DNA from: Chitinibacter sp. SCUT-21
GTDB taxonomy: Bacteria > Pseudomonadota > Gammaproteobacteria > Burkholderiales > Chitinibacteraceae
Length of the DNA stretch: 64,000 nt
NCBI GenBank assembly: GCA_041874755.1
Contig: CP102611.1
Coordinates: 1,116,001 to 1,180,000, forward strand
Reading direction: 5' to 3'
Below the pieces are notes generated by a model. It was not told where the DNA came from and made no database searches. It saw only the letters and a program-made list of their open reading frames with translations. Below, piece by piece: positions 3,312 through 62,613 of the stretch (its first letter is position 1; each line of letters starts with the position of its first letter). The position numbers were made by a program, and so were the translations under genes.

Positions 3312-3360
3312 GGGTATATTGTCAAAAGGCTTTCTTCAAAAGGGCTACATAGAAATACCC
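3312..3360. repeat. 49-bp GGGTAT...ATACCC unit, copy 1
   Basis: Begins GGGTAT and ends ATACCC, exactly 49 bp, four bases after the tesA stop. The interior shows weak self-complementarity (GCTTT...AAAAGGGC). It belongs to the dispersed family described in the findings. Confidence 0.6.
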
Positions 3361-3383
3361 AACAAGACAAATATTCATCGCTC

Positions 3384-3415
3384 AAAAAAATGCCACCTTG
3401 CGGTGGCAGTTTTTA
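3384..3415. terminator. Bidirectional Rho-independent terminator between tesA and the BON gene
   Basis: A perfect 7-bp stem (TGCCACC/GGTGGCA, 3391-3408) with a TTGC loop is flanked by A7 on the left and T5 on the right, so it can terminate transcription from both converging genes. Confidence 0.85.
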
Positions 3416-3997
3416 TTGCGGCAATGCTTGCACGGGTTGCACCAACTTCACAACGCGTGCGACCCCCGAAACCGATGCGGCGATATTAGCCGCTTTATCA
3501 GCCAAAGCTGGGCTACTCATCCCGAGCAGGTACACAACGCTGCGATCAGTGATTACTTGTAAATGTACCGCTGCGGGATCCCCACCAGATGCCAACAAAA
3601 CGCTTTTCACTCGTGTTGTCAGCTGGGTATCGTTCAAGCGCTCTGTGGTGGTCGATAATGGACCAATGAATAAATCATTATGAACGCGCTTGGTTTCGCT
3701 AAATGAGCGGGCAATTTGTTCCGCTTTCGCTTTGATATCCGCACTAGGCACTTCGCCAGTCAGCAACACTTGTCCATTAAAGGTATTTACCGATATATGC
3801 ACCTGATCCCGCCATTCATCGCGAATCTTGGCATCAATATCAGCCCCTAATTTAGTGTCGTTTTTAATGCTGACCGTGGGACGTGGATCTGAGCCAATCC
3901 ATGCCCCTACCGCAACACCACCCACTACCATCAACGGAACGCAAGCCGATAATCCCACACTGGCAGCCAAGATAGCCGCAGTTACGACACGCTTCAT
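3413..3997 (-). CDS. dolP: DolP/YraP-like double-BON-domain outer-membrane lipoprotein
   Basis: Predicted lipoprotein of 194 aa. The signal peptide ends in the lipobox LSAC ([19 protein letters not shown]), so Cys19 would be lipidated. Two BON domains follow, roughly residues 45-115 (containing FNGQVLLTGEVP) and 122-188 (containing DRSVVYLLGM). E. coli DolP binds anionic phospholipid at the outer membrane and supports envelope integrity. It is last in the lpoA-yraN-SIS-dolP cluster, and its ATG overlaps the preceding TAA by one base (TAATG). Convergent with tesA across a bidirectional terminator. Confidence 0.88.
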   Translation of the reverse strand: MKRVVTAAILAASVGLSACVPLMVVGGVAVGAWIGSDPRPTVSIKNDTKLGADIDAKIRDEWRDQVHISVNTFNGQVLLTGEVPSADIKAKAEQIARSFSETKRVHNDLFIGPLSTTTERLNDTQLTTRVKSVLLASGGDPAAVHLQVITDRSVVYLLGMSSPALADKAANIAASVSGVARVVKLVQPVQALPQ

Positions 3998-4587
3998 TAA
4001 TCGCCTCCCAACAGCATAAAATCAACGGCATCACACAGCGCATGAATCGCAGTGATATGCACTTCTTGAATTCGCGCGGTGCGTGGATGCGCAACGCAAA
4101 TGTTTACATCGTCGCCCGTCATTAAATCAGCAATTTGCCCGCCGTCACGGCCGGTGAAAGCGATTACCGTCATTTGGCGGTCGTGCGCAGCATGAATGGC
4201 CGAAATCACGTTGGCCGAGTTACCCGAGGTTGAAATCGCCACCAAGATATCGCCAGCGCGACCCAAGGCGTGTACTTGCTTAGAAAAAACCAAGTCAAAA
4301 TCATAATCGTTGGCAATGGCCGTCAAGGCGGACGAATCCGTCGTCAGCGCAATCGCTGGTAAACCTGGGCGCTCACGCTCGAAACGGCCGACCATTTCGG
4401 CGGCAAAGTGCTGCGCATCGGCGGCTGAGCCGCCATTACCACATGCCAAAATCTTGCCGTCCGCAATCAAAGTCTGTACGACTTTTTCAGCCGCCAGTGA
4501 AATCGCCGGGCTGAGCACTTCGACAGCGGCCATTTTCGCGGCGATGCTTTCTTCGAAGTGTTGCTGAACGCGTTGAATTAAATCCAT
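3997..4587 (-). CDS. gmhA: SIS-domain phosphoheptose isomerase GmhA / DiaA homologue
   Basis: A 196-aa SIS-domain protein. GmhA converts sedoheptulose 7-phosphate to D-glycero-D-manno-heptose 7-phosphate for LPS core; its relative DiaA promotes DnaA assembly at the origin. Position in a yraN-(SIS)-yraP cluster and overall sequence ([28 protein letters not shown]) look like DiaA, but the zinc and catalytic residues of GmhA are kept: His60, Glu64, Gln174 and His182 (in [11 protein letters not shown]). By my recollection E. coli DiaA lacks two of these. An enzymatic isomerase is therefore plausible, possibly with both roles. Spacing to yraN is short, about 30 nt. Confidence 0.85.
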
Positions 4588-59963: not shown

Positions 59964-60233
59964 GGGGTTAACCTATTTTCGAAGCTGGATATCTCAAAGC
60001 ACTGAGGCACCGAGAATTCAAGGTGCATAACTGCAACACCTACGGCATACACGGCACGAACAACAAATACTTACTTAAACCGAAAACAAACTTAATTTAC
60101 AATGCCTGAAGTGTATCATGTGGCTGTGTGGCCACCTTGATTAGACACAGTAAAAACGCAGCACGGATGCATATTTTTCCGATCATTCGGCTCACCTCAA
60201 CGCCAAAACTCCCCTTACCCTTTGGATTTGCTC

Positions 60234-62546
60234 ATGCTTCAGCGCTTGTTTGCCCTTTCAGTTTTGTTATGTTGCCTGCAAGCGCATGCCATCTCGATAC
60301 CCGGCTTCTCTGGCTCCAGCATCAGCGCCGAAACGAGCGCCGAGCCAACGGCCTCCAGCAATAACAGCCTCGATGAAAAAATGACGCTGATTCGGCAAAA
60401 ACTCGAACACGCACAAACGCTGTATGAGCAGCTAAAGCAATCCGACAAAGACAGCGATCCACTGATCTATAACCGTTTGTATTTGTATGAAATACAAATG
60501 ACGGCTTACCGCCAACACTTGGCGGCGTTAACAGGGCAAAAAGCGCAAGAAGGCTTAGCACAAAAACAAGCACCCGTAGAGACCATTGCAAGCAGTGTAT
60601 TGGCGATTAATCAGCAGCGACAATCACTGCAAACCAATCAACTGGCGGTGCGCAATTTAATGGCCTTGCTTGAAACACAAGAAGGCTTACTCACCGAGCA
60701 GCAAGATGTATTAGCGGACAGCCAAGCGCAGTTGCGGCGCAAAAGCGAAACTTTAGAGCAGGCTAAACCCGAAAATCGTGCGGCCGCCCTCAAAGACGTG
60801 CAACTGGCCCAGTTGCAAGTGGAAACTCGCACCGCCGTATTAAAATCGATGGAAGAACGCCAAAAATATACTCGGGCACAATTGCAATTTAGTCGTGAGC
60901 AACAAGAAGCACTCGTCCTGGCGCTGAAAGACCAACCATTGCAGCCCAAATTAAACGACAGCGAATTCAAGCAAGTTCAAGCCCAAATCGAGAAACAACG
61001 CCAACGAATTAGCAGCCAGATTGCGCGCTTAAGTGATATGAAACAAGAATGGCTCAAACAGGTTGATGAGCTCAGTGCCCAGCGACAAGCCTTGCTCGCA
61101 GAAAAAGAGCAATTAGCCAAAAAATCGGCCTCTCGAGTGACCACGCGCAGCGAAGATGATATCAATACCGAATTAAATGAAGTCACCAAATTGGAGCAAA
61201 TTAATTATTTGCGCCTAGAAAATAACTCATTGAGTATTGGCATCTTGCTCGATGTCTTAAATGGCTACACTCTTGAGCACGCGTTCTGGCAAATGTATTT
61301 CAATATCAGCCAGAACATCAATCAGGTTGATCTGAATGACTTTCAGCGCAACACCCTCAAATGGGATGTCCACCTCAGCACTATTTCCTCCGAAGTACAA
61401 CAAGCGATTACGGTTGCGCAAATGCAAGCGCAACAATTAGAAGATCAGGATGAATTAAGCTTGGTTGAGCGCAAATTATGGCAAGAACGTGCCGAAGTCT
61501 TAAGCGAAGCAGCCGCAGAATTATCACGTTTGCGCTTACTGATTCAACGCTGGGGCGAGCAGTTTAACGTTAAAAAAACCGATCAAAGCGTACAAGAACG
61601 GGCAGGATTATGGAAAGAACGGCTGCAGAAAAATATTGATGCTTTTTGGCATTACGAATTATTCAGTGTGGCTGACACCTTGCAAGTTGACGGCCAAGTT
61701 GTCTCCATCTCGCGCGGCGTAACGGTCGGTAAATTGGTATTTGCCATTCTGCTGATGCTGATCGGCTTCTTCCTTATCCTTAAATTAGCGCATTGGTTTG
61801 AAGCTTATTTAATTCGCCGTTTTAACTATCAAGCCATCGTCGTGCGGATCGCAAAACGCTGGATTTTGGCGGTGGCGTTTATTATTTTGCTGATTAATTC
61901 GCTACTGCTGGTGCGCATTCCGCTCACCGTGTTTGCCTTTATGGGCGGCGCGATTGCAATTGGTTTAGGCTTTGGTATGCAAACGCTGCTCAAAAACTTA
62001 ATCAGTGGCTTGATGATGATTTTAGAGCGCCCTTTCAAACCGGGCGATACCGTTGAAGTGGGCAATTTACGCGGCACAGTCGTCGATATGAGCGTGCGTG
62101 CCGCCGTGATTCGCGACATTAATGGCATCGAAACACTGGTACCCAACAGCACGTTTCTAGAGCAAAACGTCACCAACTGGACATATAGCAGCAATCTTGT
62201 TCGCCAGTCGGTCAAAGTTGGCGTTGCATATGGCAGCGATGTACGACTTGTTTCCAAGTTGCTGGCCGAGGACATCGAACGACACGGGCAAATCTGCAAA
62301 GAGCCTCATTATGAAATCTTGCTAGAAGACTTTGGCGCTGATGCCTTGATGTTTGGAGTGCATTACTGGATAGACATCACGGCCGGCACCTTGGGGCGGC
62401 AAGTGGCCAGTGATTTACGTTTTATGATTGAAGCGTCACTACGCAAAAACCACATTGAAATTGCCTTCCCACAGCGTGATGTTCATGTGGACATTGCCCA
62501 ACCGATCGAGTTGAGAATTCAGCGCAATCAAAACAACGCCCAGTAA
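60234..62546 (+). CDS. MscS-type mechanosensitive channel with long periplasmic coiled coil (KefA/MscK-like)
   Basis: A 770-aa protein. Signal peptide (MLQRLFALSVLLCCLQAHA), then a long coiled-coil periplasmic region (~45-430; NSLDEKMTLIRQKLEHAQ, LSDMKQEWLKQVDELSAQR). A first membrane helix (~503-523, LVFAILLMLIGFFLILKLA), two more helices, and the MscS core: GGAIAIGLGFGMQTLLKNLISG (pore helix), ERPFKPGDTVEVGNLRG (beta domain) and PNSTFLEQNVTNWTYS. Releases solutes on hypo-osmotic shock. Shorter than E. coli MscK. Start supported by GGA eight bases upstream. Confidence 0.9.
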   Translation: MLQRLFALSVLLCCLQAHAISIPGFSGSSISAETSAEPTASSNNSLDEKMTLIRQKLEHAQTLYEQLKQSDKDSDPLIYNRLYLYEIQMTAYRQHLAALTGQKAQEGLAQKQAPVETIASSVLAINQQRQSLQTNQLAVRNLMALLETQEGLLTEQQDVLADSQAQLRRKSETLEQAKPENRAAALKDVQLAQLQVETRTAVLKSMEERQKYTRAQLQFSREQQEALVLALKDQPLQPKLNDSEFKQVQAQIEKQRQRISSQIARLSDMKQEWLKQVDELSAQRQALLAEKEQLAKKSASRVTTRSEDDINTELNEVTKLEQINYLRLENNSLSIGILLDVLNGYTLEHAFWQMYFNISQNINQVDLNDFQRNTLKWDVHLSTISSEVQQAITVAQMQAQQLEDQDELSLVERKLWQERAEVLSEAAAELSRLRLLIQRWGEQFNVKKTDQSVQERAGLWKERLQKNIDAFWHYELFSVADTLQVDGQVVSISRGVTVGKLVFAILLMLIGFFLILKLAHWFEAYLIRRFNYQAIVVRIAKRWILAVAFIILLINSLLLVRIPLTVFAFMGGAIAIGLGFGMQTLLKNLISGLMMILERPFKPGDTVEVGNLRGTVVDMSVRAAVIRDINGIETLVPNSTFLEQNVTNWTYSSNLVRQSVKVGVAYGSDVRLVSKLLAEDIERHGQICKEPHYEILLEDFGADALMFGVHYWIDITAGTLGRQVASDLRFMIEASLRKNHIEIAFPQRDVHVDIAQPIELRIQRNQNNAQ

Positions 62547-62564
62547 AAATAAATATGCCCCGAC

Positions 62565-62613
62565 AGGTATCACCAGCCAGGGCAATTCAAATAATGTATA
62601 GCAGCAAATACTA
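62565..62613. repeat. 49-bp AGGTAT...ATACTA unit, copy 13 (degenerate right end)
   Basis: AGGTAT to AAATACTA, exactly 49 bp; the final CTA is the TAG stop codon of the minus-strand spoT. This repeats the arrangement of copy 9. Confidence 0.4.

Follow-up and report, generated by a model that had tools for sequence, protein, structure and literature searches.

DNA-uptake signals, the DUS of the Neisseriaceae and the USS of the Pasteurellaceae, are short sites of which a genome carries from hundreds to ~2000 or more. Like the 49-bp sites described here, they occur within coding sequence as well as at the ends of genes, and their positions are conserved. Their cores of 9–12 bp are not known to have a two-fold axis, whereas the present sites are 49-bp dyads with strong exclusion of close pairs. 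The dRS3 elements of Neisseria (ATTCCC-N8-GGGAAT, 20 bp) form intergenic mosaic arrays. They resemble the 49-bp units in having six-base inverted ends, an interior that varies in sequence but not in length, and copies in the hundreds, and they occur in the same bacterial order, but the 49-bp units are mostly single copies and lie in genes as well as in spacers. Among transcription regulators, GabR binds direct repeats of ATACCA (PMC4494728, PMC5320631), and MocR direct repeats are described as two or three helical turns apart (PMC5320631). The 49-bp sites likewise possess an ATACC core and boxes separated by whole helical turns, here approximately four; GabR boxes, however, are direct repeats which lie upstream of only a few genes, whereas those reported here are inverted, number ~950 and are not at promoters. 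The original prediction knew of no described family with this geometry, and a literature search at the level of titles and summaries likewise revealed nothing on a 49-bp family.

The 49-bp units and their copy number

The window, a 64-kb stretch of Chitinibacter DNA, contains 20 GTAT-N37-ATAC units at a span of 49 bp and 0–2 at every other spacing tested. All 13 units originally listed are present where they had been placed, and score 24–39 bits with a weight matrix for which 112 units from outside the window served as the training set. The four units named as having both six-base ends do possess them, but a fifth, at 8296, had been overlooked: GGGTAT-N37-ATACCC is found five times at 49 bp and 0 times at any other span from 20 to 89. 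The peak relative to control spans, proposed as a check, is sharp in samples of this genome and of three relatives (that of G014 being drawn from two contigs). A total of 464 kb of this genome holds 132 units at 49 bp, whereas other spans average 4.3 and none exceeds 9; the relatives hold 107 versus a mean of 3.4, 111 versus 3.7 and 55 versus 1.4; and 400 kb held out from matrix training holds 112 versus 3.3 elsewhere (maximum 10). Three of the four genomes also show an excess at 50 bp (10 vs 4.3, 13 vs 3.4 and 5 vs 1.4), G015 being the exception (4 vs 3.7), and the 48-bp span shows no rise in any of the four (3, 3, 0 and 0). Across the whole genome GGTAT-N37-ATACC occurs 376 times versus 3 for the reversed control, and the 245 GTAT-N37-ATAC units of an 864-kb sample extrapolate to ~950 genome-wide.

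At a threshold of at least 12 bits the matrix recognizes 25 places in the window (mean 0.0 in 20 two-base-block shuffles), and at a threshold of at least 14 bits, 21 places (mean 0.05, maximum 1 in shuffles); conservation of the ends in these hits is partly by construction, since the matrices were built from GTAT and ATAC units. Table 1 is exclusive of three weak matrix hits (7636, 8053 and 49409) and of the strict unit at 44657, which scores only 2.0 bits and is probably a chance occurrence.

Table 1. The 49-bp sites of the window. Gene calls are home-made (longest ORFs with codon score); "matrix only" marks sites recognized by the weight matrix only.
Feature	Position	Location	Score (bits)	Remark
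Dyad site, both six-base ends	3312..3360	Intergenic	35.4	
Dyad site, both six-base ends	8296..8344	Within ORF 7262-9397	19.3	
Dyad site	10317..10365	2 bp past stop of ORF 9601-10314	28.6	
Weak site	12007..12055	Within ORF 11191-13140	13.7	
Site, one imperfect end	15741..15789	Within ORF 14070-18200	19.6	Matrix only
Dyad site	20211..20259	Divergent intergenic	29.2	
Dyad site	23036..23084	Intergenic	31.8	
Dyad site, both six-base ends	23719..23767	Convergent genes on either side	39.0	
Site, one imperfect end	24735..24783	Within GH18 chitinase gene	22.5	Matrix only
Dyad site	26737..26785	Intergenic	33.9	
Dyad site	31714..31762	Within ORF 30491-36211	24.3	
Site, one imperfect end	32680..32728	Within ORF 30491-36211	20.4	Matrix only
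Dyad site	33983..34031	Within ORF 30491-36211	22.0	
Dyad site	36334..36382	Intergenic, adjoins rRNA operon	25.4	
Dyad site	43410..43458	Within called ORF 43246-44358	30.6	
Dyad site	46496..46544	Convergent genes on either side	31.7	
Site	52487..52535	Within birA	17.1	
Dyad site, both six-base ends	53820..53868	Within type III pantothenate kinase gene	24.2	
Site	55665..55713	Within flgT	13.5	
Dyad site, both six-base ends	58803..58851	Between genes	32.5	
Dyad site	59710..59758	Between genes, near thiG	30.9	
Dyad site	62565..62613	Convergent genes on either side	24.4	

Architecture and placement

The spacing is rigid in four genomes and in held-out DNA, and the consensus is dyad-symmetric. AT and GC preferences recur at helical distances from the site centre, and an AT-rich shoulder lies at ±32–34 bp; both are seen in coding and in held-out copies. 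The interiors differ widely, and the flanks have no shared features beyond the shoulder. One suggestion in the original prediction, a protein-binding site, suits the rigid spacing, the dyad, the independently varying arms of coding copies and the conserved ends.

Another suggestion, a hairpin RNA family, holds only in part. A mixed set of 132 copies displays no clear covariation; pairing emerged after 434 classified copies (193 coding) were split by location. Copies at gene 3′-ends form 8.4–9.0 Watson-Crick pairs of 18 versus 7.1–7.2 with arms re-paired (z 6.9 and 7.7), and the site at 46496 is an almost perfect inverted repeat, with 17 of 18 interior positions pairing. In coding copies the arms vary independently, with no covariation (193 sites, z −0.1), and the 28 copies in divergent spacers exhibit no pairing excess (z −1.0). 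Copies just past stop codons also form predicted hairpins, and coding copies do not. That the family consists of structured RNAs or of DNA hairpins, as the pairing of the 3′-end copies might suggest, is the least credible of the readings considered, for coding and divergent copies possess the same ends and spacing with no such excess; a hairpin RNA or cruciform as common function was rejected for the coding and divergent copies on this ground. Rfam matches in the window comprise rRNA and tRNA only. The 3′ subset recalls REP/BIME elements and 3′-end hairpins in its position just past stop codons and its hairpin potential, but the 49-bp copies have no sequence similarity to one another beyond a weak consensus, and those in coding DNA are not hairpins.

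Intergenic copies lie just past stop codons (medians of 8.5–23.5 bp) and are dense in convergent spacers, and divergent spacers form the poorest intergenic class (0.43–0.72 sites per kb). Genes harbor 17 to 77 copies per sample, spread along the gene in G000, where this was checked. The gene-end preference and the complementary arms of the 3′ copies are what might be expected of a gene-end protein (roadblock or termination factor) or of the operators of one global transcription regulator, and the core and helical-turn spacing of the GabR/MocR boxes point in the same direction. We nevertheless regard this explanation as improbable: the spacers which bear promoters are the poorest in sites, the copies within genes are numerous, and no continuous T-run follows the 3′-end copies, single positions reaching 0.51 T. 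Operators of MocR/GabR or other GntR proteins were rejected on the hundreds of sites and the paucity in divergent spacers, and intrinsic terminators on the missing T-run.

Neighboring sites are avoided. Pairs less than 500 bp apart number 11, versus 57 in all expected under a uniform null and 67 ± 8 under a class-preserving null; in held-out DNA there are 2 versus 16.8 ± 3.9. The class-preserving null yields 26 pairs less than 100 bp apart because its 3′-end pools are small, and L056 was left out of it because its 624-bp tandem repeats each bear a site. Second sites are avoided within ~550 bp and spacing is evener than random, with one cluster of four sites in G015 violating the rule. At least two sites are found in 59 of 60 20-kb stretches, and no gradient from origin to terminus is visible by eye in two of three genomes.

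Distribution and conservation

The host belongs to the order Neisseriales (reached through Chitinibacter). Among the 100 genomes searched, the full 12-base form is present in 100–291 copies in each of the 15 genomes of three related genera and in 0–3 copies in the remaining 85; the site is restricted to these genera among the genomes sampled, each of which is estimated to carry between several hundred and a thousand copies in these genera. When single loci of ~20 kb were scanned for tetramer and pentamer dyads, in a search for a comparable dyad with different ends in relatives lacking the sites, GTAT-37 ranked first among tetramers in nine of ten site-bearing loci (two of which are of the same strain) and second in L072, and was missing from the top hits in 11 loci of relatives without sites (g2–g9). 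Locus L076 contains two pentamer dyads of four copies each (p 4e-9 and 3e-8). The site-bearing g1, g10 and g11 form one group in an unrooted six-gene tree (SH-aLRT 93/bootstrap 87); single-gene trees are weaker, those of thiG and trmB placing g10 elsewhere. The motif appears to have arisen once.

The ends of orthologous sites are kept in 47 of 53 comparisons against a background identity of 74–79%, and the interiors show 59–69% identity; the comparisons are site-by-genome pairs in alignable DNA only, with some sites recurring in several genomes. The site at 43410 has a 49-bp counterpart at the corresponding place (interpolated between aligned blocks) in Chitinibacter sp. GC72, a member of the same genus. 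Most sites are conserved at the DNA level, including those within genes. The birA site is present in all seven g1/g11 rows, the only ones with Tyr (TAT), and absent from all ten others; the flgT site is present in six of seven and absent from all 11 others; and that of the type III pantothenate kinase gene is found in five of five g1 rows and is absent in two g11 rows. In birA and flgT, the two genes examined, length is the same with and without the site, revealing gain by substitution with no indels.

This finding lends no support to the recombination or transposition substrate which had also been suggested. If the units were remnants or targets of a recombinase or mobile element, either MITE-like units or phage or transposon targets of the dRS3 kind, this would explain inverted ends, fixed length and hundreds of copies, and recombination between near sites could produce the avoidance of close pairs. 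We consider such an origin very unlikely, given the unchanged length of both genes, the conserved orthologous ends, the widely different interiors, the flanks with nothing in common beyond the AT shoulder, and 0 matches to a stricter site form in viral contigs. MITEs or other inserted elements were rejected since empty sites in the two genes show no length difference, and dRS3/NIME repeats since ends and length differ and many 49-bp copies are coding.

The main rival is a DNA-uptake or self-recognition signal like the neisserial DUS or pasteurellacean USS: a receptor would favor site-bearing DNA, and transformation would spread and keep the sites by molecular drive. The host order, the hundreds of sites that lie in coding sequence and at 3′-ends, the positional conservation, the spacing evener than random and the presence of ComP_DUS-type pilins all agree with it; the top dispersed 8-mers include GGGTATAT and GGGTATTG, and nothing resembling a known DUS stood out among the top dispersed words. 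Spread by uptake would indeed give much of the same picture as an organizing protein. It is nonetheless an unlikely explanation in our judgment, although less so than the others. ComP_DUS (PF16732) was found in 40 of 43 genomes irrespective of the presence of sites, relatives lacking the sites possessing such pilins equally, and a dyad of 49 bp is suited to a soluble dimer. Closely spaced pairs are rare among the present sites, unlike USS of Haemophilus influenzae 86-028NP, where 230 pairs lie within 100 bp and 109 have centres within 14 bp (PMC7811141); the USS model there spans 31 bp with AT tracts (PMC7811141). The short, asymmetric, over-represented core typical of DUS and USS was not found, the signal being the 49-bp dyad: GGGTAT alone, paired copies included, occurs 320 times versus 260 expected and is not strongly over-represented. 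A different dispersed uptake word was rejected among the top words, which are tandem repeats and pieces of the 49-bp motif; the next dispersed 10-mer, GCTGGTGCTG, occurs 37 times versus 4.1 expected. The two papers found to mention both Chitinibacter and natural transformation concern, by title, Neisseria. The uptake motifs known to us are short and without two-fold symmetry. Were the sites an uptake signal, they would represent a further independent origin and the first two-fold symmetric one known to us.

A putative chromosome-organizing protein

We favor, with a probability of about 0.5, the interpretation that the 49-bp units are genome-wide anchor sites of a putative site-specific chromosome-organizing protein. 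The DNA displays fixed geometry, a dyad, conservation at the nucleotide level, a spacing rule and a flank signal; from these we infer a bound protein, DNA bending and an architectural role. A single two-fold symmetric DNA-binding protein or complex would bind the ~950 sites (extrapolated). Two of its subunits would each contact one of the GGTAT ends, which lie four helical turns from each other, and weaker contacts would fall ~10 and 4.5 bp away from the centre. Ends and AT-rich shoulders ~33 bp out together imply that ~73 bp of DNA would be engaged, and this DNA is probably bent. Selection on the DNA would hold most sites and seldom keep a second within ~550 bp; the protein would use them as chromosome anchors every 3–4 kb, and copies just past stop codons may have become hairpins secondarily.

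No binder was found among the ParB, ComP_DUS, GntR, HU/IHF and small basic proteins examined; its gene may lie elsewhere in the genome, of which about a quarter was read. ParB lacks a paralog common to the clade. The IHF consensus, WATCAANNNNTTR, occurs in 0 of 434 sites, and the units were on this basis rejected as IHF sites. GntR yielded 11 matches; three of these are long open frames similar in size to MocR, with a right-frame reading for L141 only. Two short GntR genes were rejected as the binder, both adjoining ABC-transporter genes. The 864-kb sample lists 28 small basic proteins, and six proteins were scanned against Pfam, among them the L138 GntR and a YgjP-like protease whose gene lies between two sites. 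An HU paralog accompanies the sites in 10 of the 10 site-bearing genomes where it was sought; it occurs also in g7, where full sites number only 0–2 per genome, and in g10 its identity is 50–51% versus at most 52% for other HU-like matches, orthology being assigned from the score margin. This clade-associated paralog is a candidate binder, though a weak lead.

It is conceivable, at somewhat less than even odds, that an ancestor of the three Neisseriales genera gained a protein which marks the chromosome throughout with approximately one rigid two-armed site per 3–4 kb, the genome, genes included, having been rewritten base by base. The result would be a chromosome scaffold encoded in the sequence, with a minimum spacing of its own, of which we know no bacterial description. 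The motif, present in ~950 copies, is conserved both within and outside coding DNA, and a minimum distance between its copies was measured. It raises the questions of how a code of sites spanning the chromosome comes to be acquired by a genome, what each binding event costs or gains, and whether the chromosome is folded by sites spaced 3–4 kb from one another. Most nucleoid proteins known in bacteria have little sequence preference or few sites. The sites of matS/MatP, parS/ParB, Noc and SlmA are, like the 49-bp units, two-fold symmetric, and bind a soluble dimer on the chromosome; they are, however, 13–20 bp in length, far fewer and biased along the origin-terminus axis, whereas those described here are 49 bp, number ~950 and are roughly even in distribution.

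The 49-bp sites and their number

The strict form of the site (GTAT-N37-ATAC, exactly 49 bp) occurs 20 times in the window, against 0–2 times at each other spacing tested. All 13 units of the original prediction are present as described, and all were recovered by a weight matrix trained on units outside the window. The four units said to possess both six-base ends (GGGTAT-N37-ATACCC, the full form) do so, but the total is five, the unit at 8296 having been overlooked. The sharp peak predicted at 49 bp was borne out in samples: 464 kb of the window's own genome (G000) contain 132 units at this span versus a mean of 4.3 and a maximum of 9 at other spans. 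The 49-bp counts and other-span means for samples of three relatives are 107 versus 3.4, 111 versus 3.7, and 55 versus 1.4, and those for 400 kb of held-out DNA, not used in training, are 112 versus 3.3. Counts at 50 bp are also elevated (10, 13, and 5) except in G015 (4), the remaining one of the four genomes; at 48 bp none of the four shows an elevation (3, 3, 0, and 0). G000 is a single contig of 3,454,474 bp, of which the window covers C1:1116001-1180000, and GGTAT-N37-ATACC is found 376 times in this whole genome versus three times for the reversed control. Extrapolation from the 245 strict units in 864 kb of G000, minus background, gives about 950 sites in total.

In the window's genus (g1), symmetrising the arms gives a one-arm consensus of about GGGTATtGcCCTGnAGnCCaAT, which leads into a centre of five bases; the corresponding arm in g10, another site-bearing genus, is GGGTATnnnCCTAnAGCCaTT. 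GTAT is almost invariant in the units, though it also served to select them; among matrix matches, for which it was not strictly required, both ends are present in 127/145, 100/112, 100/109, and 53/79. The interior is less constrained than the ends and its preferences differ between genera. Base preferences lie approximately 4.5, 10, and 20.5 bp from the site centre. Outside the ends is an AT-rich shoulder with its maximum at ±32–34 bp (coding copies, 0.65 versus 0.45 far off; other copies, 0.72 versus 0.47; held-out DNA, 0.69 at 33 bp), which suggests that some 73 bp of DNA are engaged. The IHF consensus is found in none of 434 sites.

Placement, spacing, and arm pairing

Placement was analyzed in G000 and its relatives G004, G015, and G014 using home-made gene calls. 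Sites within genes amount to 77/145, 49/112, 50/109, and 17/79, respectively. Coding units make up 72 of the 132 in the 464-kb G000 sample, versus 3.4 per other spacing, and the 67 G000 units entirely within a called gene are spread along its length. Convergent spacers are the densest in three of the four genomes (2.65–2.82 per kb), the exception being G004 (1.05 per kb; tandem spacers 1.16), and divergent spacers show the lowest density among spacers (0.43–0.72 per kb). The median distance of intergenic copies is 8.5–23.5 bp to a stop and 96–119 bp to a start. No ori-ter gradient of density is seen by eye in G000 or G004. In G015, sites are sparser around the skew switch, a region that is low in GC as well; few sites would be expected in such stretches if the DNA was recently gained.

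Pairs of sites less than 500 bp apart number 11 in four genomes, versus 57 under a uniform null. The same 11 compare with 67.1 ± 7.8 (500 draws, minimum 46) under a null keeping coding and 3′-end classes; locus L056, in which every 624-bp repeat contains a site, was for this reason excluded from the comparison. The observed/expected ratio under the latter null is 0.04–0.30 below 500 bp, 0.48 at 500–600 bp, and 0.75–1.08 beyond; held-out DNA contains two close pairs versus 16.8 ± 3.9 (uniform null). A second complex within 550 bp may be redundant, or near complexes may form harmful short loops. One G015 cluster (L116) is contrary to this exclusion and is possibly a duplicated intergenic unit.

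In 132 mixed copies, arm pairing does not rise above the column-frequency expectation, except at one column (z 2.5). An excess is found in copies ≤60 bp after a stop (n = 104, z 6.9) and between convergent genes (n = 76, z 7.7), with no clear excess in coding copies (n = 193, z −0.1), divergent copies (n = 28, z −1.0), or tandem copies >60 bp from a stop (n = 33, z 1.2). The hairpin RNA family, one of the options in the original prediction, therefore does not describe the set as a whole; the 3′-end copies that do pair are without a continuous T-run. The common feature of the sites is the dyad; hairpins are an additional property of the 3′-end copies.

Distribution among genomes and gain of sites

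Among 100 genomes, full-form counts are 175–291 in g1 (n = 6), 144 and 154 in g10 (n = 2), and 100–188 in a third genus, g11 (n = 7), versus 0–2 in 28 further family genomes and 0–3 in 57 genomes of the same order outside the family. Chitinibacter sp. GC72 was the sole named organism matched by a window protein. A wider order sample (399 genomes) gave at most three full sites outside g1, g10, and g11, and a class sample (114 genomes) at most two outside G000. NCBI taxonomy places Chitinibacter in the Chitinibacteraceae, Neisseriales. A single origin of the sites would suit the grouping of g10, g11, and g1 in an unrooted six-gene tree (SH-aLRT 93, bootstrap 87), from which the thiG and trmB single-gene trees differ in putting g10 elsewhere.

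At aligned places, G000 sites are kept in 15/16 cases in G004, 22/24 in four other g1 genomes, and 10/13 in two g11 genomes, these being site-by-genome pairs in alignable DNA with some sites counted repeatedly. The corresponding background identities are 0.79, 0.75, and 0.74, and those of the site interior 0.69, 0.64, and 0.59. The birA site is present in 7/7 g1/g11 rows and 0/10 other rows of a gap-free alignment, and the flgT site in 6/7 versus 0/11; the left GTGTAT of the latter also occurs in the two g10 rows, so this end is partly older. The coaX site is found in 5/5 g1 rows and 0/2 g11 rows, a few outgroup rows being gapped. The birA and flgT patterns indicate that at least two sites arose via substitution, not insertion, which speaks against the recombination or transposition substrate originally proposed. 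At birA, gain of the site changed the predicted protein.

Other repeats were also encountered; the pentamer dyads of L076 are probably a local repeat.

Features of the window and of sampled ~20-kb loci
Location	Positions	Observation
Window	23171–23668	YgjP-like metallopeptidase gene between two sites 683 bp apart (23036–23767)
Window	36458–41818 (minus strand)	Complete rRNA operon with tRNA-Ile and tRNA-Ala; adjoins site 36334
L056 (G000:C1:2550001-2570000)	12847–19998	Giant ORF, 624-bp tandem repeats; eight sites at 624-bp steps
L116 (G015)	16938–18374	Four similar sites, 262–691 bp apart, gene-poor stretch
L105, L107–L110 (G015)	about 0.5–1.4 Mb	Low-GC stretches near skew switch; 0–3 sites per 20 kb
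L150 (G000:C1:196210-196512)	6210–6512	Divergent HU paralog adjoining lysS-like gene (by eye); likely orthologs in g1, g11, g10, g7
L051, L090, L164 (two genomes of the genus)	~15642; ~10170; ~11533 onward	AGAAGC six-base tandem runs, 12 to 106 overlapping matches
L076 (G006, genus g2)		Pentamer dyads TGCGA (gap 16) and AGCCC (gap 27), four copies each in 20 kb

Nature of the sites

Rigid two-fold spacing, independent arms, helical contacts, the flank signal, and conservation at the DNA level together point to the binding site of a two-fold protein, and on these sequence grounds we consider it very probable (approximately 0.9) that the 49-bp units bind such a putative protein. Chromosome-wide spread, promoter avoidance, and the exclusion zone would suit a chromosome-organising protein, which in the role we infer for it would set one anchor per 3–4 kb.

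An HU-family paralog (G000:C1:196210-196509) was reached via HU/IHF counts. Orthologs occur in 6/6 g1, 2/2 g11, and 2/2 g10 genomes searched (g10 at 50–51% identity) and also in two genomes of g7, one match being partial; the other 15 family genomes searched gave lower-scoring HU-like matches only. Since g7 has the paralog but 0–2 full sites per genome, possession of this gene may be required for the sites but does not suffice for them. No clade-specific candidate emerged from searches for ParB, ComP_DUS, and GntR (the last sought in G000 only).

The sites are real, numerous, and conserved, and undescribed as far as literature searches reach. Searches on the ends, on Chitinibacter repeats, uptake, and transformation, and on Chitinibacteraceae nucleoid proteins revealed no published description of such a family among the matches listed, the coverage taking in only a minority of subscription papers and no bioRxiv preprints. 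The wide class is that of genome-wide dispersed recognition sites; every named family that was compared either conflicts with the 49-bp sites in a defining feature or may still apply, and the sites may be a separate kind of their own.

It is rather unlikely that they are uptake signals like DUS/USS. A two-fold 49-bp motif better fits a soluble dimer than a pilin. The spacing of DUS corresponds to conversion-fragment length, according to PMC2397512. In Frye et al. (PMC3630211), Laribacter, Lutiella, Pseudogulbenkiania, and two Chromobacterium genomes are without obvious DUS, and the term "chitin" does not occur. USS lie ~1 kb apart, and one strain has 230 pairs within 100 bp, with 109 pairs whose centres are within 14 bp (PMC7811141). 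DUS/USS share with the 49-bp sites their copy number, placement in coding DNA, and conservation; such close USS pairs differ from the exclusion found between the 49-bp sites.
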